This document shows positions 11,459 to 38,862 of a DNA stretch of 44,517 bases, piece after piece. The notes under the pieces were generated by a model. It had not been told where the DNA came from. It worked only from the letters and a program-made list of their open reading frames with translations, and did no database searches. A program made the translations under genes and the position numbers. The stretch is from Candidatus Uhrbacteria bacterium. Lineage in GTDB: Bacteria; Patescibacteriota; Patescibacteriia; UBA9934. Position 1 is the stretch's first letter. Each line of letters begins with the position of its first letter. The stretch spans positions 1 through 44,517 of the forward strand of contig CAINGB010000045.1 of assembly GCA_903848275.1 (NCBI GenBank), given 5' to 3'.

Positions 11459-11503
11459 CCAGCTCAGCTGGCTTGTCAGTTTGCGGCCAAAGCTGAGCTT
11501 TGG
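11459..11503. repeat. Family B double palindrome, copy 1
   Basis: 45 nt: CCAGCTCAGCTGG, a 15-nt spacer ending TTTGCGG, then CCAAAGCTGAGCTTTGG. It is intergenic, 10 nt beyond the stop of the minus-strand gene at 11514. On the minus strand it would encode PKLSFGRKLTSQLSW, the same peptide as the coding copies, but no gene reads through it here. Confidence 0.85.
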
Positions 11504-14579: not shown

Positions 14580-14724
14580 AGCCAAGGCTCGGGGTGCGAA
14601 AGTTCGTCGGGTCCTGCCGCTTGGCCACCCTCCTGGGTGCTCACTAGACGTTCCGCGCCCAGCAGGGGACCTGGCTCGCGTCACCCGACTAAAGGATGTT
14701 AGGCCTGCCCCTCGCTACTTGGCT
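14580..14724. repeat. Family A structured repeat, copy 1
   Basis: About 145 nt. The ends GCCAAGGCTCGGGG and CCCCTCGCTACTTGGC are inverted. Inside, GTCGGGT pairs with ACCCGAC, GTCCTGC with GCAGG-GGAC, and CTGGGTGC with GCGCCCAG, so the element folds as one long hairpin. It lies between the ferredoxin and oxidoreductase genes, ending 24 nt before the latter. Related copies at 29107, 35038, 36749 and a diverged one at 42094. Confidence 0.85.
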
Positions 14725-14748
14725 TTCAAGACAGATAAAATACTTTAT

Positions 14749-15924
14749 ATGCAGTACGTAATCATTGGTGGGGGCATTGCTGGTACGACAGCAGCGGAAG
14801 AGTTGCGTAAGACTGACGCCACGGCTGAGATTACGATTGTGGATGAAGAGGCCCATGCTTGCTACTCGAGGGTACTATTGCCGCATTATATTAATAGTAA
14901 GGTGCCAAGAGAGAAGGTTTTTTTACGGACGGAGAAGTGGTACGCCGAACAGAGGATTGAAAGATTGGCGGGAACGATTGTGACGGAGATTGATACAAAG
15001 AATAATTTTGTGACGATTCATAGCGGCCGAGAGTTGCCTTATGATAAGTTGTTGCTGGCGACCGGGGGACAGTTGAATTTGGCGCAAACGGACCCGAAGG
15101 GCGTGTGTTATTTGCAAACGCTCGACGATGCCGATGGGATTGTAGCCAGATTAGCTGAGGTGAAAAGATTATCAAAGGAGCAACAACAAGCGGTGATTAT
15201 TGGGGGCGGCTTTATTTGTTTGGAGTTTGTGAATATTTTTGCGCTGCATGAGATACCAACAACGGTGGTAGTGCGCGGTGATGGTTTTTGGTCCCGGGTG
15301 TTGAGTACGCAAGCTAAGATAGTGTTAGCCAGGCAAGCGGCAAGTAAAGGTGTGACGCTGTTGACGGGACAAGCTGAGGCGTTGCCAGTTGGTGAGACCG
15401 AGGTGAATGGTGTGCAGTTGGCGGATGGTACCGTGTTGTCAGCGTCGATGGTTGGGGTGGGGTTGGGAACGCATGCTGATAAGTCGCTATTTGTGGAGGC
15501 GGGCGTCGAGATTAAGTCCGGGATTTTGGCGAATAGTTATTTGGAAACGAATTTGCCGAATGTGTATACGGCGGGGGATGCGGCCGAGTTTAGTCATCCG
15601 TTGTTAGGACGGCAGATGCATATTGGCAACTGGTTGAACGCCCAAATGCAAGGCAAGACAGTGGCTAAAACGATGCATGGCGAGAGAACCGAGTTTAGTT
15701 TGGTGTCGTCGTATTCGACTAATTTGCTAGGCATGCATATTGTATTTATAGGCGACGCTAATCCGGAATTTGCCAGCGAAGTGAGGAGTCATAAGGTGAC
15801 GGAGACGAGCTGTGTCGACCTTTACCTCAGAAATGATAAGATAGTAGGGGCGGTGCTGATTGGGGACTTGGCTGACCGAGCCTTAATAACAAAAGCTATC
15901 CAAGAAGGAAAATCGACCCTATAA
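14749..15924 (+). CDS. FAD-dependent pyridine-nucleotide oxidoreductase
   Basis: Flavoprotein of 391 residues in the rubredoxin/ferredoxin reductase and NirB N-terminal group. FAD site: YVIIGGGIAGTTAAEELR at the very N-terminus. NAD(P) site: AVIIGGGFICLEFVNIF in the middle. A third FAD contact: VYTAGDAAEFSH near residue 280. There is no CxxC redox disulfide. The start ATG at 14749 places the first Rossmann motif at residue 4, as expected; the open frame upstream only reads into the family A repeat. Probably passes electrons between NAD(P)H and the adjacent ferredoxin. The next gene follows after 10 nt. Confidence 0.9.
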   Translation: MQYVIIGGGIAGTTAAEELRKTDATAEITIVDEEAHACYSRVLLPHYINSKVPREKVFLRTEKWYAEQRIERLAGTIVTEIDTKNNFVTIHSGRELPYDKLLLATGGQLNLAQTDPKGVCYLQTLDDADGIVARLAEVKRLSKEQQQAVIIGGGFICLEFVNIFALHEIPTTVVVRGDGFWSRVLSTQAKIVLARQAASKGVTLLTGQAEALPVGETEVNGVQLADGTVLSASMVGVGLGTHADKSLFVEAGVEIKSGILANSYLETNLPNVYTAGDAAEFSHPLLGRQMHIGNWLNAQMQGKTVAKTMHGERTEFSLVSSYSTNLLGMHIVFIGDANPEFASEVRSHKVTETSCVDLYLRNDKIVGAVLIGDLADRALITKAIQEGKSTL

Positions 15925-15934
15925 TTACGGCAAT

Positions 15935-17035
15935 ATGGCAAATATGTTGGACCAAGCGAAAGTTTACGCTGCTTACGACCCAGATGACATTGCTTACGGC
16001 ATTGATCATTTAGCGGAGCAGGTGAGATTAGCTTGGAGTGAGAGCCGTTTGGTGAAGTTTCCCGCATCGTATAAGACGTGTAGCAATATTGTGATTGCTG
16101 GCATGGGCGGTTCGGCGTTGGGGCCGGATATGCTGCAAAGCGTGTTTTTTAATAATTTGACGGTGCCGGTGACGATAGTACGCGGTTATGATTTGCCGGC
16201 GTTTGTGGATAATAAGACGCTGGTCTTGTTGTCGAGCTTTTCGGGGACGACGGAGGAAGTGCTCGAGGCAGCGGTGGTGGCTAAGAAGCGCAAGGCTAAG
16301 ATAATGGCGATCGCGGCTGCCACAGTCGGTCACGACCGACGTGGTGAAGTGGGTTTACAGGAGTTGGCGGCGAAGGAAGGCTGGCCAATGTATGTGTTTA
16401 CGCCGGGAGATTTGGCGAAGCAGCCACGGTTGGGAACTGGCTTTTCCTTGGCAGGCATTTTGGGCATGATGTCGACCTTGGAGTATGTGAAGTTTGGGGA
16501 GGCTGATGTGCGGCGCTTGCTGACGGCGATGGGCGATGTGCTCGATACTTGTGCGGTGGATGTACTAGTTAAAGATAACCCAGCTAAAACAGTAGCGCAG
16601 AGTTTGCACGGCCGCACGGTGTTTGTGATCGGGGCTGAGCATTTGCTCGGCAACGCGCACGTTTTGAGTAATCAGATTAATGAAACGAGTAAGCAGTTTG
16701 CGACTTATTTTGCTTTGCCTGAACTCAACCATCATCTGCTGGAAGGGTTGACGTTTCCGAAGGGCTTTATTAAAAATGTGACGGTGCTGATGCTGCGGTC
16801 GGCGCATTATCATGAACGAGTGCAAAAGAGGTTCAAGGTAACGGCGGATATTTTTGAGCGTATTGGGATTGAGGTGATTGAATATGATTGCGGCGGAAAA
16901 GATGCGATTGAGGAGTGTGGCGAGGTGCTGCAGTACGGCAGCTTTTTGAGTTATTACTTGGCGATGTTGAATTATGTGAACCCGACGCCGATTCCGTTTG
17001 TGGATGAGTTTAAAGAAAGGATGTCGGCCAGCTGA
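15935..17035 (+). CDS. SIS-domain phosphoglucose/phosphomannose isomerase
   Basis: A 366-residue sugar-phosphate isomerase of the bifunctional PGI/PMI type, converting glucose-6-P or mannose-6-P to fructose-6-P. SIS domain 1 has IVIAGMGGSALGPDML and VLLSSFSGTTEEVLEA. The later LPELNHHLLEGLTFP segment carries the catalytic-type Glu and His of this family. Two repeats affect the gene. A decayed family C palindrome lies at 16320-16344, where the protein reads TVGHDRRGEVG between strand and helix, a place where homologues I recall are shorter. The stop codon TGA (17033-17035) lies inside family B copy 2, so the repeat sets the C-terminus (MSAS). Confidence 0.88.
   Translation: MANMLDQAKVYAAYDPDDIAYGIDHLAEQVRLAWSESRLVKFPASYKTCSNIVIAGMGGSALGPDMLQSVFFNNLTVPVTIVRGYDLPAFVDNKTLVLLSSFSGTTEEVLEAAVVAKKRKAKIMAIAAATVGHDRRGEVGLQELAAKEGWPMYVFTPGDLAKQPRLGTGFSLAGILGMMSTLEYVKFGEADVRRLLTAMGDVLDTCAVDVLVKDNPAKTVAQSLHGRTVFVIGAEHLLGNAHVLSNQINETSKQFATYFALPELNHHLLEGLTFPKGFIKNVTVLMLRSAHYHERVQKRFKVTADIFERIGIEVIEYDCGGKDAIEECGEVLQYGSFLSYYLAMLNYVNPTPIPFVDEFKERMSAS
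16320..16344. repeat. Family C palindrome, decayed copy inside the isomerase gene
   Basis: 25 nt matching the 24-bp palindrome at 35166 and 37058 with one extra A and one G-to-A change: CCACAGTCGGTCACGACC followed by GACGTGG. It lies inside the isomerase coding region and is translated. Confidence 0.65.
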
Positions 17036-17072
17036 GCTGGCTTGGGGGTTTGCGAGGGAAGCTCAGCTTCCC
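17028..17072. repeat. Family B double palindrome, copy 2
   Basis: 45 nt: CCAGCTGAGCTGG, 15-nt spacer ending TTTGCGA, then GGGAAGCTCAGCTTCCC. Both outer arms of the second palindrome are changed from CCA/TGG to GGG/CCC together, so pairing is preserved. It supplies the stop codon of the isomerase gene. Confidence 0.85.
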
Positions 17073-19267: not shown

Positions 19268-19296
19268 AATGTAGCACGTTTTGGTGGTTTTGTCCA
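19268..19296 (-). promoter_or_regulatory. Promoter of the 640-residue membrane protein gene
   Basis: On the minus strand -35 TGGACA (19296-19291), 17-nt spacer, -10 TACATT (19273-19268), giving a leader of about 125 nt. The first base of the -35 box overlaps the edge of family B copy 3. Confidence 0.6.
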
Positions 19297-19339
19297 GCTC
19301 AGCTGGATTTTTAGGTTTGCGGCCAAAGCTTAGCTTTGG
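19294..19339. repeat. Family B double palindrome, copy 3 (between divergent promoters)
   Basis: CCAGCTCAGCTGG, 16-nt spacer ending TTTGCGG, CCAAAGCTTAGCTTTGG. At 46 nt it is the only copy not 45 nt long, and it is wholly non-coding. It occupies the space between two divergent promoters. Confidence 0.85.
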
Positions 19340-20946: not shown

Positions 20947-21336
20947 TTACTGAATGGAGCTTTGGATGTTGCTGATGACGAAGTAGCTGATAGCGTAGGC
21001 GGAGAGCAAGATGATGAGGCCAATGACGGAGCTCATGAGAATGCCCTGGGCCTTTTTGACTTTGTCTTCGTTACCAGCGGCGGTCATCCAGAGAAGACCA
21101 GCGTAGATGATGAGGATGAGGAAGACGACACCGAGGAAACCGAGAAGAGTTTGGATGAGGGTACCGATGGTGTTGGTGAGGGAGTCGGCAGATTGTTGTG
21201 AGTAACCAGCACCCGAACCGACAGTGCTGAGCTTAGTTGTAACGTCGATGCCAGTAGCATGGGCAGAAGATGCAAGCATTGGGGCGAAGGGCAGGGCGAA
21301 GAGCGCCGCAGCCACGAGAATGTTCTTTAACTTCAT
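20947..21336 (-). CDS. T4SS-pilin-like protein (sixth of six)
   Basis: A 129-residue two-helix membrane protein. Signal peptide MKLKNILVAAALFALPFAPMLA, short hydrophilic region, then two hydrophobic helices around FLGVVFLILIIYAGLLWMTA and VIGLIILLSAYAISYFVI, joined by the conserved loop AGNEDKVKKAQG. This is the architecture of VirB2/TrbC-type pilin subunits, as seen in the T4SS_pilin family common in CPR genomes. Its own extended -10 promoter lies at 21368-21373, so it may be expressed more strongly than the others. Confidence 0.85.
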   Translation of the reverse strand: MKLKNILVAAALFALPFAPMLASSAHATGIDVTTKLSTVGSGAGYSQQSADSLTNTIGTLIQTLLGFLGVVFLILIIYAGLLWMTAAGNEDKVKKAQGILMSSVIGLIILLSAYAISYFVISNIQSSIQ

Positions 21337-21367
21337 AGCGAAGGATTAAAATTTTTAAGACAGGGTT

Positions 21368-21373
21368 ATTATA
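21368..21373 (-). promoter_or_regulatory. -10 box upstream of pilin-like gene 6
   Basis: Minus-strand TATAAT preceded by TGT (extended -10 type). No good -35 seen. Leader about 25-30 nt. Confidence 0.5.
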
Positions 21374-21402
21374 ACATGAAGTGTGAGGGACGATAAGTGG
21401 GA

Positions 21403-21825
21403 CTAAGGAGTATAAACTGAAGAGCCGGTAATGGAGTTGGAAATATTTGTTAGGATGAAGTAGCTGATAGCGTAGGCAGCCATGGCGATGAAGATACCGA
21501 TAACAGCGTTCTTGAGAATGCCTTGGGCTTTTTTGACGCGGTCTTCGTTACCAGCAGCAGTGAGCCAGAGAATGCCAGCGTAGATGATGAGCACGAGGAA
21601 GACGACGCCGAGAAGACTGAGAACCGCTTTGATGAGTAGAGTGATGACGCCGAGGAGATCTGCATTGGGTAGAGCGTTGTCGTAAGCAGCGTTGGCGCCG
21701 GTGTTGAGGCCGGAACTGTAGATGCTAGTGTTGGTGGGCGATGGAGTAGCTGGTGGATCAGCGGCAAGAGTAAAAGATGGGAGTAAGAGTAAACTGGCCA
21801 GAAAAGCGTAGGCGATTTTTTTCAT
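21403..21825 (-). CDS. T4SS-pilin-like protein (fifth of six)
   Basis: 140 residues: signal peptide MKKIAYAFLASLLLLPSFTLA, a Pro/Ser/Thr/Asn-rich segment of about 30 residues, then LLGVVFLVLIIYAGILWLTA, the loop AGNEDRVKKAQG and the second helix VIGIFIAMAAYAISYFIL. The loop and helices are nearly identical to pilin-like gene 6, pointing to a recent duplication. It starts 9 nt after the stop of the preceding paralogue. Confidence 0.85.
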   Translation of the reverse strand: MKKIAYAFLASLLLLPSFTLAADPPATPSPTNTSIYSSGLNTGANAAYDNALPNADLLGVITLLIKAVLSLLGVVFLVLIIYAGILWLTAAGNEDRVKKAQGILKNAVIGIFIAMAAYAISYFILTNISNSITGSSVYTP

Positions 21826-21834
21826 ACTAAGTGC

Positions 21835-22227
21835 TTAACCAGTAATACTGCCAGCGGTGATAGCGTTGAGAACGGCATTGGTGAGGGCGTAAGCGGCAAT
21901 GATGATGATGGCGCCAATAACCGCGCTGGTAAGAATGCTTTGGGCTTTTTTAACGATGGTTTCGTTGCCACCGGCCATCATCCAGAGCACGCCGCCGTAA
22001 ATCATGAGAATGAAGAAGCCAAGACCGACTAGGCCGAGGATTGGTTTGATGATGAAAGAACCGATAAACTCAGTAATGTTGGTATTTTCAACGGAACCAG
22101 TAGCAAGGCCGGCGGCTTTCCCGCTTGATTCGAGGCCGTAGCTAGTAGCAGCGGAGTCGGCGGCTAAAGTAATCTTAGGAAGTAACAAAGAAACGGCCAG
22201 TAAACTGGCGAGGAGGAATTTTCGCAT
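21835..22227 (-). CDS. T4SS-pilin-like protein (fourth of six)
   Basis: 130 residues: signal peptide MRKFLLASLLAVSLLLPKITLA, a short extracellular part, helix LVGLGFFILMIYGGVLWMMA, loop GGNETIVKKAQS and helix VIGAIIIIAAYALTNAVL. Same fold as its neighbours. The small differences (GGNE for AGNE) show that the copies have diverged while keeping the Lys-rich loop. Lies 47 nt downstream of the third paralogue. Confidence 0.84.
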   Translation of the reverse strand: MRKFLLASLLAVSLLLPKITLAADSAATSYGLESSGKAAGLATGSVENTNITEFIGSFIIKPILGLVGLGFFILMIYGGVLWMMAGGNETIVKKAQSILTSAVIGAIIIIAAYALTNAVLNAITAGSITG

Positions 22228-22274
22228 AGTGGAGGCTCTGCACGATTGGTGCAGAGCGACCAGCAGGGGAAAAT

Positions 22275-22682
22275 TTACTGAGTAGCGCCGATGATGGAGC
22301 TGATGACGAAGCTGGCAATGGCGAAGGCGGAAAGAATGATGGCCAAACCGATGATACCAGCGATGATGAGGTTCTTAGCTTCTTGAACTTTCTCGTCGTT
22401 ACCACCAGCGGTCATCCACTTGAAACCACCGAGCAAGATGATGATAACAGCGACGACACCGAGGAAGCCTAGCATGACGCGGATGAGGTTGCCGATAGTG
22501 GTCTTGAGATCTGCTTGGCCGAGGCCGGCGGTGTCGCCGAAGTTGGAGTTAAGCAAATCGCTAGTTTGTAGTTGTTGAGCATGAGCAACGTGGACAAAGC
22601 CGACGTGGGAGAGGCCGAGTGGCAACACGAGAAGTGTAGCGAGACCAAGTCCCATAACGAGACGTGAAAGTGTTTTCGACAT
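22275..22682 (-). CDS. T4SS-pilin-like protein (third of six)
   Basis: 135 residues: basic start and signal peptide ending near VHVAHAQQ, then a region with LNSNFGDTAGLGQADL, helix FLGVVAVIIILLGGFKWMTA, loop GGNDEKVQEAKN and helix IIGLAIILSAFAIASFVI. The loop is the most divergent of the set (QEAKN for KKAQ). A separate extended -10 promoter (22713-22718) precedes it, so transcription can start inside the cluster. Confidence 0.84.
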   Translation of the reverse strand: MSKTLSRLVMGLGLATLLVLPLGLSHVGFVHVAHAQQLQTSDLLNSNFGDTAGLGQADLKTTIGNLIRVMLGFLGVVAVIIILLGGFKWMTAGGNDEKVQEAKNLIIAGIIGLAIILSAFAIASFVISSIIGATQ

Positions 22683-29106: not shown

Positions 29107-29249
29107 GGCCAAGGCTTGGGGTAACCGATTTCGTCGGGTCCTGCCGCTTGGCCACCCTCCCAGGTGCTCACTGCGTTGCGCGCCCGGCAGGGGACCTGGC
29201 TCGCGTCACCCGACTACAAGAGGTTAGGCCTGCCCCTCGCTACTTGGCC
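29107..29249. repeat. Family A structured repeat, copy 2
   Basis: 143 nt with the GGCCAAGGCT and TACTTGGCC ends and the internal GTCGGGT/ACCCGAC pair intact. The central loop reads GTGCTCACTGCGTTGCGCGCCC, shorter than in copy 1. It lies between the secreted-protein gene and the histidine kinase gene, ending 20 nt beyond the kinase stop. Confidence 0.85.
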
Positions 29250-29268
29250 TTTCGGGCTGCTAAAAATT

Positions 29269-30306
29269 TTATGTCTTCGTACTTAAAGGGAGTTTGAGGG
29301 TGACCGTGGTGCCGTGACCGGGAGTGCTGATCATACTGACGGTGCCGCCCAAGTCGGCCATGATGGATTGCACGATGGCGAGACCGAGGCCAGAGCCGCC
29401 AGTGGCGCGAGAACGGCTTTGTTCAACACGCCAGAAACGGTCGAAGATGCGCTCGAGGTCCGCTGGTGCGATGCCGATGCCGGTGTCGATGACGGTGACG
29501 ATGGCTGATTGCTCGTCGACGCCGATCGATACGTCGACGCTGCCGTTATCTTTATTGTAAACGATGGCGTTGTTGATGATGTTGCTCAAAGCGACGTCGA
29601 GGAGGTCGCGATTGGCGTGGATGTTGATGAGGTGAGGAGAAGGTGAGAGATGAAGGGTGATGTGGTGTGATTCGGCGACGGATTTGAGGCGGTCGACGGC
29701 TGAGATGACGAGTTCGATGAGGTTTATGGCTGTGGCTGGGCGAGGTGGGGAGTTGTGTTCGTCGAGTTTGGAGAGTAGGAGGAGATCGGCAACTAGGCGG
29801 CGCATGCGTTCTATTTCTTCCAGGTGGCTGTCGATTTGAGCGAGGACTTCTTCATTAGTAGCGACCAGCCGTTCGTTTTCAAAGTCGGTTTTGAGGATGG
29901 CGAGAGGAGTGCGAAGTTCGTGGCTGGCGTCGCTTAAGAATTTCTTTTGAGCGCTGTAGGCGGCGCGGATTGGTTTGATAGTGGAACCAGCCACGAGGTA
30001 GCTGACAATGCCGGCAATGACAAGGAGAATGCCGTTGACGATGACCAGGGTTTGGATAAGATCCGAGCGGACGTCTTCGGCGGTTGGTACTGGAACGAGC
30101 TCGGAACGTTCGAGGTCAAAACGAAGGCCGTGAAAACGGTTTTGTAGTTGCTCATTAAAAACGCCACGCGTGACGGCACTCGAAATAATGAGAATGGCGG
30201 CGAGAACCACGATGTAGAGCATGGTCAGCCAGAAACGAGTGGCGCCTAGGCGTTCCTCAAACGAGACGGTAGCCTTTGCCCCAGACGGTTTGGATGCGTT
30301 TTGCAT
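29269..30306 (-). CDS. Sensor histidine kinase
   Basis: About 345 residues if started at 30306 (MQNASKPSGAKATV); the frame is open to 30372. Two membrane helices (FWLTMLYIVVLAAILIISSA and LVIVNGILLVIAGIVSYLV) flank a short extracellular loop of about 50 residues. The HisKA domain follows with the phospho-acceptor His in KKFLSDASHELRTPLAIL. Then HATPase boxes: N box LSNIINNAIVYNKD, G1 VIDTGIGIAP, F box IFDRFWR and G2 GGSGLGLAIV. All catalytic boxes are intact. Its start overlaps the end of the response regulator gene by 50 nt, so the pair is translated together. The signal sensed is unknown. Confidence 0.92.
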   Translation of the reverse strand: MQNASKPSGAKATVSFEERLGATRFWLTMLYIVVLAAILIISSAVTRGVFNEQLQNRFHGLRFDLERSELVPVPTAEDVRSDLIQTLVIVNGILLVIAGIVSYLVAGSTIKPIRAAYSAQKKFLSDASHELRTPLAILKTDFENERLVATNEEVLAQIDSHLEEIERMRRLVADLLLLSKLDEHNSPPRPATAINLIELVISAVDRLKSVAESHHITLHLSPSPHLINIHANRDLLDVALSNIINNAIVYNKDNGSVDVSIGVDEQSAIVTVIDTGIGIAPADLERIFDRFWRVEQSRSRATGGSGLGLAIVQSIMADLGGTVSMISTPGHGTTVTLKLPLSTKT

Positions 30307-33682: not shown

Positions 33683-35002
33683 TTATTTGGCCAAAGGCAA
33701 GACTTTGGTTTGTTGCGAATTAAGGTAAACCGTGGCGGATAGGAGTAAAGCTGTCAGCATAGCGAGGTCGTTTTTGAAGAAGGGGACGTCGACGAGGCCG
33801 TGGATAATGATGGTGAAGAAGGCTGCAAGCAGCATGAGGCGCCCGAGCTCAGCTCGGTTTTGAGTTTGCGACCAAAGCTGAGCTTTGGTTGGGAGGAGGG
33901 TTTTAAGAATAAAAAATGAGATGATCAAGAAGGCTAAGAGGCCGGGGAGGCCGAGTTCGACCCAGATGTTTAAGAAGATGTTGTGGGGGTATTGGAAGAT
34001 TTCGAAGTAGCTGGCGTCGTGATAAGGGGCGATGACCGTGGGGAAGCTAGAGAGGCCTGCGCCAAGGAGAGGATGGTCGCGGAGCATCGATAATGTTTCG
34101 TGCCACATTTGGGTACGGGCGGTGCCGCTGACGTCGTGAAGAAGGATTTTTGTGCGGATGGTGGGAATGGTGAGAGCGCCGATGAGGGCGAGGAGGACGA
34201 GGGCCGTGCTGACGAATTTTGTGGTGCGAGAGACTTTGGAAAGAAGGAGGGTGAGGAAGAGGGCGGCGGGGATGGCGAGGAAGGCGGCTTCGGTTTGAGC
34301 GAGGATGATGGCTCCGGAGATGAGAATTATTGAGATAATGAGCGTCGAGCTCAGCTCGATTTTTTGTTTGCGGCCAAAGCTCAGCTTTGGCAGGCTAAAG
34401 AGGAATACGAGAAGCATTGATAAAATTGGGGCGAGGAAGAGGCCGACGGCGTTCGGGAAGTCGAATACAGATGTTACTCGATGTTCGGCGAGCCAGGCGA
34501 GGGGGAAGCCGAGGCCGGTGAAGTATTGAGCGAAGCCGATAAGGGCAACGACGACGGCGCTGGCGGCGAGGGCGATGAAAGCAGAGGTCCAGTCGGTGGT
34601 TTTTTTGAAGGTTGATAAGGTGAGAATAAGAATGATGGCTGGTTCGAGATAGTAGGCTTTGAGGATGCCGAGAGCGGTGAAGATGTTAGGAGCGTGAAGA
34701 GTGGCGAGGATTAGTGTAATTAAAATGAGGATAAGAGCGGGCCAGCTCAGCTGGCTTGTTGGTTTGCGGCCAAAGCTCAGCTTTGGCAGAGAGGTCCACT
34801 GTTTTTTAAGGAGCCAAACCGAGAATAAAATGAGGGTGAAGATTTCTAAAGCTGTTGTTGGGAGAGGGCCTAAGGAGAAACGGAGGAGATAAGTTGGGAG
34901 AAGGCCGCAGAAGAGGACGAGAGATAAATGAAAATTACGCCAAGCGAGAATGGTGAAAGAGGTGAAGAGGATGATGAGAAAAGCAGCGTAGAACATATTC
35001 AC
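33683..35002 (-). CDS. O-antigen ligase/polymerase-like membrane protein with three inserted repeats
   Basis: 439 residues, about 10-12 hydrophobic segments. The C-terminal part carries the Wzy/WaaL-type loop region (WHETLSMLRDHPLLGAGLSS, then IFQYPHNIFLNIWVELGLPG), which is the characteristic ligase/polymerase signature, so the protein probably handles lipid-linked glycans at the outer membrane face. Three family B repeats are translated inside it: residues 73-87 (PKLSFGRKPTSQLSW), 205-219 (PKLSFGRKQKIELSS) and about 372-387 (TKAQLWSQTQNRAELG). Each adds 15 codons and sits in loops between membrane segments. The first two are read in one frame, the third in another. The flippase gene lies upstream. 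Confidence 0.88.
   Translation of the reverse strand: MNMFYAAFLIILFTSFTILAWRNFHLSLVLFCGLLPTYLLRFSLGPLPTTALEIFTLILFSVWLLKKQWTSLPKLSFGRKPTSQLSWPALILILITLILATLHAPNIFTALGILKAYYLEPAIILILTLSTFKKTTDWTSAFIALAASAVVVALIGFAQYFTGLGFPLAWLAEHRVTSVFDFPNAVGLFLAPILSMLLVFLFSLPKLSFGRKQKIELSSTLIISIILISGAIILAQTEAAFLAIPAALFLTLLLSKVSRTTKFVSTALVLLALIGALTIPTIRTKILLHDVSGTARTQMWHETLSMLRDHPLLGAGLSSFPTVIAPYHDASYFEIFQYPHNIFLNIWVELGLPGLLAFLIISFFILKTLLPTKAQLWSQTQNRAELGRLMLLAAFFTIIIHGLVDVPFFKNDLAMLTALLLSATVYLNSQQTKVLPLAK
33844..33888. repeat. Family B double palindrome, copy 4 (inside gene)
   Basis: 45 nt: CGAGCTCAGCTCG, spacer ending TTTGCGA, CCAAAGCTGAGCTTTGG. The first palindrome has CG...CG instead of CC...GG, a paired change. 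Translated in a different frame from copies 5 and 6 of the same gene. Confidence 0.9.
34346..34390. repeat. Family B double palindrome, copy 5 (inside gene)
   Basis: 45 nt: CGAGCTCAGCTCG, spacer ending TTTGCGG, CCAAAGCTCAGCTTTGG. Translated as 15 residues beginning PKLSFGR. Confidence 0.9.
34742..34786. repeat. Family B double palindrome, copy 6 (inside gene)
   Basis: 45 nt: CCAGCTCAGCTGG, spacer ending TTTGCGG, CCAAAGCTCAGCTTTGG. Translated as PKLSFGRKPTSQLSW. Confidence 0.9.
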
Positions 35003-35037: not shown

Positions 35038-35210
35038 GGCCAAGGCTCGGGGTGCGAAAGTTCGTCGGGTCCTGCCGTTTGGCCACCCTCCCGGGTGCTC
35101 ACTAGGCGTTCCGCGCCCGGCAGGGGACCTGGCTCGCGTCACCCGACTAAAAGATGTTTGGCCTGCCACGTCGGTCGCGACCGACGTGGCCTGCCCCTCG
35201 CTACTTGGCC
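35038..35210. repeat. Family A structured repeat, copy 3, interrupted by a family C palindrome
   Basis: 173 nt. The same ends and internal pairs as the other copies, but 28 nt longer because the 24-bp palindrome (35166-35189) plus a duplicated CCTG interrupts its right arm within GGCCTGCCCC. Lies between the convergently ordered ends and starts of the ligase-like and flippase-like genes. Confidence 0.88.
35166..35189. repeat. Family C 24-bp perfect palindrome, copy 1 (nested in family A)
   Basis: Begins CCACGTCGGTCG and continues with its exact complement. Flanked on both sides by CCTG (35162-35165 and 35190-35193). Uninterrupted family A copies have a single CCTG here, so this looks like an insertion with a 4-bp target duplication. 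Confidence 0.88.
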
Positions 35211-36748: not shown

Positions 36749-36893
36749 GGCCAAGGCTCGGGGTGCAGGAGTTCGTCGGGTCCTGCCGCTTGGCCACCCT
36801 ACCAGGTGCTCACTAGGCGTTCCGCGCCCGGCAGGGGACCTGGCTCGCGTCACCCGACTACAAGATATTTGGCCTGCCCCTCGCTACTTGGCC
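36749..36893. repeat. Family A structured repeat, copy 4
   Basis: 145 nt, closest to copy 3 (shared ACTAGGCGTTCCGCGCCCGG) but without the inserted palindrome. Lies in the 319-nt gap between the divergent flippase gene and SpoIID-domain gene; the rest of this gap holds the -10 box below and nothing else I can identify. Confidence 0.88.
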
Positions 36894-36957
36894 TTACAAA
36901 CTCTAAAAAATTTATTGTTCTTCATGATTAGTGGATAAGTTTGGGCTGAAAAAGTGT

Positions 36958-36972: not shown

Positions 36973-38862
36973 ATGCTGCAATGCTTGAGGCGAGTAGGTA
37001 TTTTAGGGCTCGGGTTAGCGATGACCTTGGGATTATTGTTGCCAGGAATGACGCAGGCCACGTCGGTCGCGACCGACGTGGCAGGCGGCCGGCAGTTAGC
37101 GGCGATGCGGGTGACGACTTCTGGTAATGGGACGTTGACGATGACGCCGGGGGAAACAAAAGATGTGACCGTGACCTGGCAAAATGCTGGAACGCAGACT
37201 TGGAGTAATACTGGGGCTGGCTATGTTTCGTTGTACACGCATGGCCCGAAGTACCGGGTAAGTCAGTTTGCGGCGTCGACGTGGGTGTCCGCAAGTCAGG
37301 TGCAGAAGATGAAGGAGGCGACCGTAAAAACGAAAGGTACGGCGACGGTGTCGTTTCAGTTGAAAGCACCGACGACCGAAGGGAAGTATAGCGAGACTTT
37401 TGCGTTGGCATCGGAAAGTACGGCTTGGATTACGGGCGGCGATTTTACTCTGGCTATTAATGTGGCTAAGCCGGTGGCCGTGACAGTCAAGACAACGACG
37501 CCAGCGATGACTGCGGTGCCAGTAGATTCGGGCCTGAAGGCGGCATTGGCAATGCAGTCGGCGAATAAGGTGAAGGCTAAGGCTGGTAAGACGGTATCGT
37601 TGACGGCTGGGTTTACGAATACTGGGAGTAAGACTTGGACTAGTTATGGTTTGCAGACGCCAGACGTGAGTGTGGCCTCGGCCAGCAATGTTTCGTTTAA
37701 TAACTCGACTTGGATAGGCAATAAGTTGGCTTATGTGAGTAAGGCAGCGGTGAAGCCAGGTGAAACGGCTTATGTTAATTTTGCGATTACGGCGCCGGGA
37801 GTGAATGGGACGCACTCAGCGAAGTTTCAGTTTACGGCGAATGATGTGACTGTGAATGATGCCGTGATTGAGATTCCGGTGACAGTGACGGATGGCCGGG
37901 ATGAGATCGTTACGACCCCCTCTAGCTCCCCCATGGCTGGGGGAGAGCCGTTAGTTAATCAGGATGATGCGATTACGGGTAATGAGATTACGGAGCCGAT
38001 GATTCGGATTGGGGTGTTGATTGTGGATGAGGAAACGGATAATCAGGTGGTGATTACGAGTAATGAGAGTGATTATACGGTGACTGATACGAATGGAAAT
38101 TTGTTAGCCGAGATGACCAAAGGTAAGAAGGTGACGGCGGCTTGGGACGGTACGCGCTATACTTTTGACCGCGGTAATGGATTAGAAAAGTCGACCTATC
38201 CTTTACGTTTTGTGCCGAAGACGGCGAACGCGGTGCTGACGGTGACGAATTTTGATCGCACGGTGACACGAGGATCTGCTAATGCTGACAATACTTTCCG
38301 CAACGTGTTGGAGTTGCGGCACAACGACGTGAAGTCGCGGAGTTGGTTGATTAATGAAGTACCGATGGAGTTTTATTTGAAGGGTTTAGGTGAGACATCG
38401 AATGCTTCACACTTGGAGTTCCAAAAAGCCTTGATTACGGCGGCGCGAACTTATGCTTTCTATCATTGGACACGGGATACGAAGCACGATGGCGAGGGTT
38501 TCCACGTCGACGCTTACTCCGACCAAGTTTATAAGGGTTATGGCCAAGAGGTGAGGACGCCACGCTTGAGTCAGGCGGTGGATGCGACCCGAGGTGAGAT
38601 TGTGACGTACAACGGCGAGACGGCGATTACGGCGTATTTCTCGAGGAGTGCTGGTAAGACGCTCGATTGGAGTGAGGTGTGGGGAGGGAGTGTGCCATGG
38701 AGTAAGAGTGTGCCGGTGCCGTGTGATGTCGGTAAGACATTGTGGGGGCATGGTGTTGGCATGTCGGCATCGGGAGCATTGTGTATGGCGAATGATGGCA
38801 AATTGTGGGAGGAGATTTTGAAGTATTTCTACACTGGTATCGCTCTGGACAAGCGGTGGTAG
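36973..38862 (+). CDS. Secreted SpoIID-domain protein with Ig-like repeats and inserted palindromes
   Basis: 629 residues from ATG 36973. Signal peptide MLQCLRRVGILGLGLAMTLG to about TQA. Two Ig-like domains of the NBR1 type follow: MTPGETKDVTVTWQNAGTQT (about 55) and AGKTVSLTAGFTNTGSKTWT (about 210). A SpoIID/LytB domain occupies the C-terminal 170 residues (NEVPMEFYLKGLGE, FQKALITAARTYAFYH, YFSRSAGKTLDWSEVW, WGHGVGMSASGAL); SpoIID proteins cleave denuded glycan strands. A family C palindrome is translated right after the signal peptide (ATSVATDVAG, about 28-37). A family D hairpin is translated between the Ig and C-terminal parts (TPSSSPMAGGE, about 315-326). Probably wall-associated. Confidence 0.9.
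   Translation: MLQCLRRVGILGLGLAMTLGLLLPGMTQATSVATDVAGGRQLAAMRVTTSGNGTLTMTPGETKDVTVTWQNAGTQTWSNTGAGYVSLYTHGPKYRVSQFAASTWVSASQVQKMKEATVKTKGTATVSFQLKAPTTEGKYSETFALASESTAWITGGDFTLAINVAKPVAVTVKTTTPAMTAVPVDSGLKAALAMQSANKVKAKAGKTVSLTAGFTNTGSKTWTSYGLQTPDVSVASASNVSFNNSTWIGNKLAYVSKAAVKPGETAYVNFAITAPGVNGTHSAKFQFTANDVTVNDAVIEIPVTVTDGRDEIVTTPSSSPMAGGEPLVNQDDAITGNEITEPMIRIGVLIVDEETDNQVVITSNESDYTVTDTNGNLLAEMTKGKKVTAAWDGTRYTFDRGNGLEKSTYPLRFVPKTANAVLTVTNFDRTVTRGSANADNTFRNVLELRHNDVKSRSWLINEVPMEFYLKGLGETSNASHLEFQKALITAARTYAFYHWTRDTKHDGEGFHVDAYSDQVYKGYGQEVRTPRLSQAVDATRGEIVTYNGETAITAYFSRSAGKTLDWSEVWGGSVPWSKSVPVPCDVGKTLWGHGVGMSASGALCMANDGKLWEEILKYFYTGIALDKRW
37058..37081. repeat. Family C 24-bp perfect palindrome, copy 2 (inside gene)
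   Basis: Identical to copy 1 and flanked by CAGG on both sides (37054-37057 and 37082-37085), the complement of the CCTG pair at copy 1. Translated in the SpoIID-domain protein just after the signal peptide. Confidence 0.9.
37916..37948. repeat. Family D hairpin repeat, copy 2 (inside gene)
   Basis: 33 nt: CCCCCTCTAG, then CTCCCCCA/TGGGGGAG stem with TGGC loop, ending AGC. Translated in the linker before the SpoIID domain as 11 codons. Confidence 0.8.

Follow-up and report, generated by a model that had tools for sequence, protein, structure and literature searches.

Palindromic inserts in an O-antigen ligase gene

The 44,517-nt stretch analyzed here (the window) is part of the 985-kb genome G000 of Candidatus Uhrbacteria (Patescibacteria), for which G001 to G004 denote other genomes of the same genus. 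Within the window, a gene encoding an O-antigen ligase-like membrane protein contains three copies of a short element built from two palindromes, and three more copies lie elsewhere; all six had been listed in an initial annotation, and all six are present. The unit comprises two palindromes, pal1 of 13 nt (15 if its outer pair is counted) and pal2 of 17 nt (19 if its outer pair is counted). The spacer between them ends in TTTGCGR and measures 15 nt, or 16 nt in the 46-nt window copy. The core was found 6 times in the window, versus 0.26 expected by chance, and the full unit 5 times, versus 0.00 expected.

33683..35002, minus strand: gene for an O-antigen ligase-like membrane protein (Wzy_C, PF04932, E value 5.6e-23), 439 aa
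33844..33888, plus strand: 45-nt element in the ligase ORF, frame b (pal1 33844-33856, spacer 33857-33871, pal2 33872-33888); antisense peptide TKAQLWSQTQNRAELG; site common to G001
34346..34390, plus strand: 45-nt element in the ligase ORF, frame a; antisense peptide PKLSFGRKQKIELSS; site common to G001
34742..34786, plus strand: 45-nt element in the ligase ORF, frame a; antisense peptide PKLSFGRKPTSQLSW; missing in G001 to G004
11459..11503, plus strand: 45-nt intergenic copy, followed by the extension cttggctgcg; flanks resemble G004 L119:13160
17028..17072, plus strand: 45-nt copy overlapping the 3' end of the ORF at 15935-17035, pal1 providing its TGA stop (17033-17035)
19294..19339, plus strand: 46-nt intergenic copy upstream of a promoter-like TTGACA..TATAGT; flanks resemble G004 L119:5614, where the copy has 45 nt

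The window holds other repeats as well. A second coding palindrome, GCCACGTCGGTCGCGACCGACGTGGC, occurs at 37057-37082 and 35165-35190, and also at L143:2578-2601; it is read as the peptide ATSVATDVA in two genes, is found intergenically too, and has related forms in G001 (L190) and near the tRNA-Trp of G030 (L195). Separately, a dispersed repeat of ~165 nt (families D2/D3/D5) is present in four copies (14580-14749, 29107-29274, 35038-35207, and 36749-36918), and four related 207-nt segments at 20953-22487, in adjacent minus-strand genes, probably reflect a duplicated gene family.

As initially proposed, each of the three ligase copies spans 15 codons without a stop, and two reading frames are used (offsets 1, 0, and 0 for the copies at 33844, 34346, and 34742), the peptide of the copy at 33844 being shifted relative to the two frame-a peptides. 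Their proposed location in loops between helices is likewise borne out by a predicted structure (AlphaFold2 model from 26 homologues; mean pLDDT, 88), in which inserts at residues 73-87, 205-219, and 372-387 are flanked by predicted helices 51-66 and 82-102, 183-202 and 211-235, and 342-369 and 382-404, the first of the three inserts having a pLDDT below 50. Homologues of the ligase are present in 56 of 60 relatives, and the aligned homologues lack the blocks, with the exception of that of G001, which has two of the three sites in common with G000; the third site is private to G000. The claim that each copy adds exactly 15 codons stands for the length of the element but not for the net gain, which, according to the alignments, is only ~3 to 10 residues relative to the nearest relatives, so native loop residues must have been lost too. 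Palindromic inserts of the CCCCCTCCTTACGAAGGAGGGGG type were seen in the same ligase loops of relatives (L077, L083, and L087).

Copies in the genome, the genus, and beyond

Using a covariance model built on 16 copies (R1), we found 30 full copies in G000, the weakest of which scored 51.5 bits and was followed by a next match at 24 bits. Many copies are also present in G001, G002, and G004, while R1 found none in G003 (94% complete). Targeted stretches from four congeneric genomes gave 74 copies, of which 50 were located in predicted genes, 4 spanned gene ends, 9 were at tRNA/tmRNA 3' ends, and 11 occupied other intergenic positions. Copies within one genome are not independent of each other, and the 50 genic ones correspond to ~35 distinct sites, 11 of them common to more than one species. 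All 50 lie in an open frame, as judged from genes predicted with a simple, home-made codon-bias caller (one 45-aa host, L140, is doubtful). The link that had been drawn between a length of 46 nt and a noncoding position holds in the window only, since 24 of the 26 46-nt copies over the four genomes are genic.

A pattern scan of 84,980 GTDB species genomes returned 27 contigs, all of them Uhrbacteria or unclassified Patescibacteria/bacterium records, and among 381 genomes of the class, the element was confined to the order, apart from one unrelated repeat (a TCGAGCTCAGCTCGA pair in G296), which was rejected. Viral contigs gave no matches, and a viral origin was therefore rejected. Rfam families match the host RNAs (tRNA, tmRNA, and SAM riboswitch), but none explains the element, and the literature searched contained no description of it in Patescibacteria; the initial annotation had not recognized the sequence either.

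Reading frames and host proteins

The two frames first recognized are correct for the ligase but incomplete for the genus, in which a third class occurs. In the antisense direction, the element is read as PKLSFGRK in frame a (7 genic copies), as PTKAQLWSQT or TKAQLWSQT in frame b (11 copies), and as EPSQSSALTANPTTELSS in frame c (27 copies), with junction peptides such as LPKLSFGR and EPSQSSALTANPTSELSS; another 5 genic copies, at four sites, are read on the sense strand. Counted by site, this is a bias of 31 antisense versus 4 sense (P = 3e-6). Frames a and b are associated with 45-nt units and frame c is mostly associated with 46-nt units carrying an extra GAGCCAAG (8 nt), so that the frame-c peptide would comprise 18 codons (54 nt), as deduced from the recurrent peptide. 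In class c, the unpaired center base of pal2 is a G in 25 of 27 copies, versus 8 of 24 outside genes (P = 2e-5), and most bases besides G would produce TAA or TGA in frame at this point.

The host proteins include the ligase, TsaE, FtsZ, NDH-2, a subtilase, and a glycosyltransferase. One linker carries a frame-b copy in G000 (L144, position 379) and a frame-c copy in G002 (L115, position 397), a difference pointing to a hot spot at which copies either inserted separately or underwent conversion. TsaE has a class-b copy in G001 and, at that same place in G000, G002, and G004, a different palindromic insert, VPDSxSPG (in G000, GTCCCGGACTCCAGGAGTCCGGGAC; loci L319, L318, and L320), while TsaE homologues from outside the genus have a short loop.

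Pairing within the stems

With a structure of fourteen pairs, 97.5% of the stem pairs summed over the 74 copies are intact, and doubly changed pairs number 135, versus 35 in shuffles. Where pairs differ between orthologous genic sites, 24 are double changes that keep the pairing, 8 lead to G-T, and 11 are broken. The compensatory pairs that were kept include some that change the amino acid, for example, P to Q and G to C (L116/L132 site). Since pairing is kept despite these residue changes, selection on the peptide does not fit; what does fit is that quasi-palindromes are corrected on a template, that copies convert one another, or that the hairpin is under selection.

A longer form at tRNA and tmRNA 3' ends

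The initial annotation described the short unit but missed both a long-range structure and a form located at the 3' ends of tRNA and tmRNA genes. This full element is a hairpin of 85 to 110 nt that nearly always starts directly at the CCA end of the RNA gene, in the order CCA-CCGAGCTnAGCTCGG-spacer-pal2-spacer-AGCTnAGCGAGGTGA, followed by another palindrome. The short genic unit equals its 5' half and appears to be a short form of this longer element; L142 and L124, where a spacer of the genic type occurs next to a tRNA, resemble intermediates. Of the 73 genomes of the order, 18 match a model of the tRNA-type full element (R2). Outside this genus but within the order, 25 of 29 R1 matches begin at most 3 nt from a tRNA/tmRNA 3' end, with many isoacceptors represented, and among 13 loci found later (one of them previously seen), 12 are at an RNA 3' end and the thirteenth is 18 nt off. 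G000 itself has five copies at such ends, including that of the tmRNA (chance of at least five, ~2e-14).

Support for the long-range stem comes from its center base, on which the local palindromes place no constraint. This base forms a Watson-Crick pair in 18 of 25 cases, versus 7.2 upon permutation (0/50000), a test that is conservative, since the structure parser misreads a few sequences. In a later alignment of the full element, 94.3% is paired over both stems.

Filled and empty states can be compared at the syntenic tRNA-Val/tRNA-Ala site. In G003 it is empty, with ~9 nt between the genes; in G000 and G004, an element of ~110 nt stands right after the CCA, and in G001, a decayed remnant is found. 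No clear target-site duplication was readable at the tRNA-Val site. In G036, a SAM riboswitch (L168:365-563) that scores just under the Rfam gathering threshold harbors the full element in its P3 loop, and in G040, the element forms the 3' end of an ORF, including its stop codon. In G011 (L166:430-560), the tRNA-Leu 3' end GTTCCCGGTACCA is repeated ~110 nt downstream, directly before the element; by analogy, this duplicated end resembles one that site-specific integration might leave behind.

An intrinsic terminator was rejected as an explanation: by eye, no long T run follows the element, and terminators of the hairpin-plus-T-run kind lie further downstream at several loci.

Origin and spread of the element

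In our judgment, the copies very probably represent a family of short palindromic mobile elements of Uhrbacteria, probably nonautonomous, with a tRNA-3'-end form and a genic short form; our best reading is that this is a new family among the protein-coding palindromic elements. The full-length form, an imperfect hairpin of ~85 nt plus a terminal hairpin, would insert, or be retained, right after the CCA of tRNA and tmRNA genes and, occasionally, in another structured RNA. In one genus, its 5' half (pal1, TTTGCGR spacer, and pal2; 45 nt, or 46 + 8 = 54 nt) may then have spread to protein genes, the short form thus being derived from the long one. Insertions surviving there would be only those that leave the frame intact, introduce no stop, and land in linkers or surface loops, which would explain why the ligase, TsaE, FtsZ, and NDH-2 hold inserts of 15 or 18 codons, presumably neutral to the host. 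Because the net gain is often below 15 residues, one must also assume that loop residues were replaced or were lost afterward. The arms could be kept perfect by templated quasi-palindrome correction, by copy-to-copy conversion, or by selection for a hairpin required for mobility. That hairpin would probably be moved by an enzyme acting in trans, and the sites now visible (RNA 3' ends, RNA helix tips, and open-frame protein loops) would be those left by selection.

A bolder version, to which we give little credence, would make the full form a bacterial counterpart of SINEs, i.e., a structured RNA with its mobility tied to tRNA/tmRNA 3' ends (with the CCA serving, for example, as primer or integration point) and its 5' half being domesticated as in-frame protein inserts.

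The exact abutment on the CCA, the many tRNA species besides tmRNA, and the conserved long-range stem with its covarying center base are also what one would expect if the hairpin were a cellular RNA element, acting in 3'-trailer processing or protection and spread by conversion or duplication, with the genic copies as accidental by-products. We regard this as unlikely, given that only ~5 of the 49 tRNA/tmRNA genes of G000 carry the element, that the carrier RNAs vary between genomes (G003 being without any), and that a riboswitch and the 3' end of a protein ORF also harbor it. A REP-type system mobilized by a RAYT (Y1 tyrosine transposase) is rather improbable: although short palindromes are paired in a similar way and Y1_Tnp genes exist in the genus (9 in G000), the GTAG/CGTC tag is missing (1 and 7 of 74 copies, respectively), G003 combines 6 Y1 genes with zero copies, and G011 and G028 carry elements but lack a Y1 gene.

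A homing-like unit, consisting of the element and a small GIY-YIG endonuclease gene just downstream, seems very unlikely. Such a gene does start 117 to 225 nt past the element start at 7 of 46 tRNA-type loci (L051, L060, L062, L162, L171, L308, and L309), and a likely remnant follows the tmRNA in G000; it is, however, missing in the other 39, also adjoins tRNAs without the element, and occurs in 3 of the 7 cases at tRNA-Trp, which in G030 has the GIY-YIG gene but no element, while GIY-YIG gene counts do not follow element copy number. Finally, a protein-level explanation, in which the repeats are linker peptides conserved for their function and the DNA palindromes are a by-product, is barely credible, even if the peptides recur at linkers of many proteins, since one DNA sequence is read in three frames and on both strands, compensatory double changes preserve pairing at the expense of residues, and one-third of the copies are noncoding.

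Comparison with known systems

The mobile family favored here behaves much like the Rickettsia palindromic elements (RPEs), as had been suggested from the outset: its frames, its in-frame tolerance, the loop positions, and the presence in RNA genes match those of published RPEs (PMC2229807). Neither of the two outcomes named at the outset as refuting this view was observed, as relatives lack the residues and the genome contains 30 copies. RPEs and Wolbachia palindromic elements (WPEs) are palindromic repeats that interrupt protein genes in frame, at places exposed to solvent and possibly at hot spots, and that occur in RNA genes too (PMC2229807 and PMC3767692); in the Uhrbacteria family, the palindromic inserts are likewise in frame in protein genes and absent from orthologues, and RNA genes carry copies as well, both at tRNA/tmRNA 3' ends and in SAM riboswitch P3. 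The two differ in size, with RPE genic repeats of 105 to 146 bp as opposed to units of 45 nt or 46 + 8 nt, in the separate form of ~85 to 110 nt that abuts tRNA/tmRNA 3' ends in Uhrbacteria, and in their hosts (Alphaproteobacteria versus Patescibacteria); the sequences also differ, to judge from the lineage of the pattern matches.

With REP/RAYT systems, the family shares short, perfect, paired palindromes that are partly intergenic and whose structure is kept by compensation, but it has no GTAG/CGTC tag and no evident tie to the presence of a Y1 transposase, and it is mostly genic, whereas REPs are extragenic (PMC3733652). MITEs (RUP, Correia/NEMIS, and ERIC) are similarly small stem-loop elements, probably moved in trans, but no target-site duplication or partner transposon was recognized for the Uhrbacteria element. 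To our knowledge, the machinery mobilizing RPEs is still unknown, and the tRNA-3' form, with its naturally occurring occupied and unoccupied sites, provides material in which to look for mobilizing machinery. Palindromic repeats with coding potential were also described in Methanocaldococcus jannaschii (Suyama 2005, as cited in PMC2229807); these are archaeal, and the likeness is one of description, as given in the citing paper. Coding palindromic inserts were previously known from Rickettsia, Wolbachia, and one Methanocaldococcus report, and an unrelated family in conserved genes (such as tsaE and ftsZ) of a reduced Patescibacteria lineage suggests that selfish DNA has come to lengthen proteins by this route more than once.
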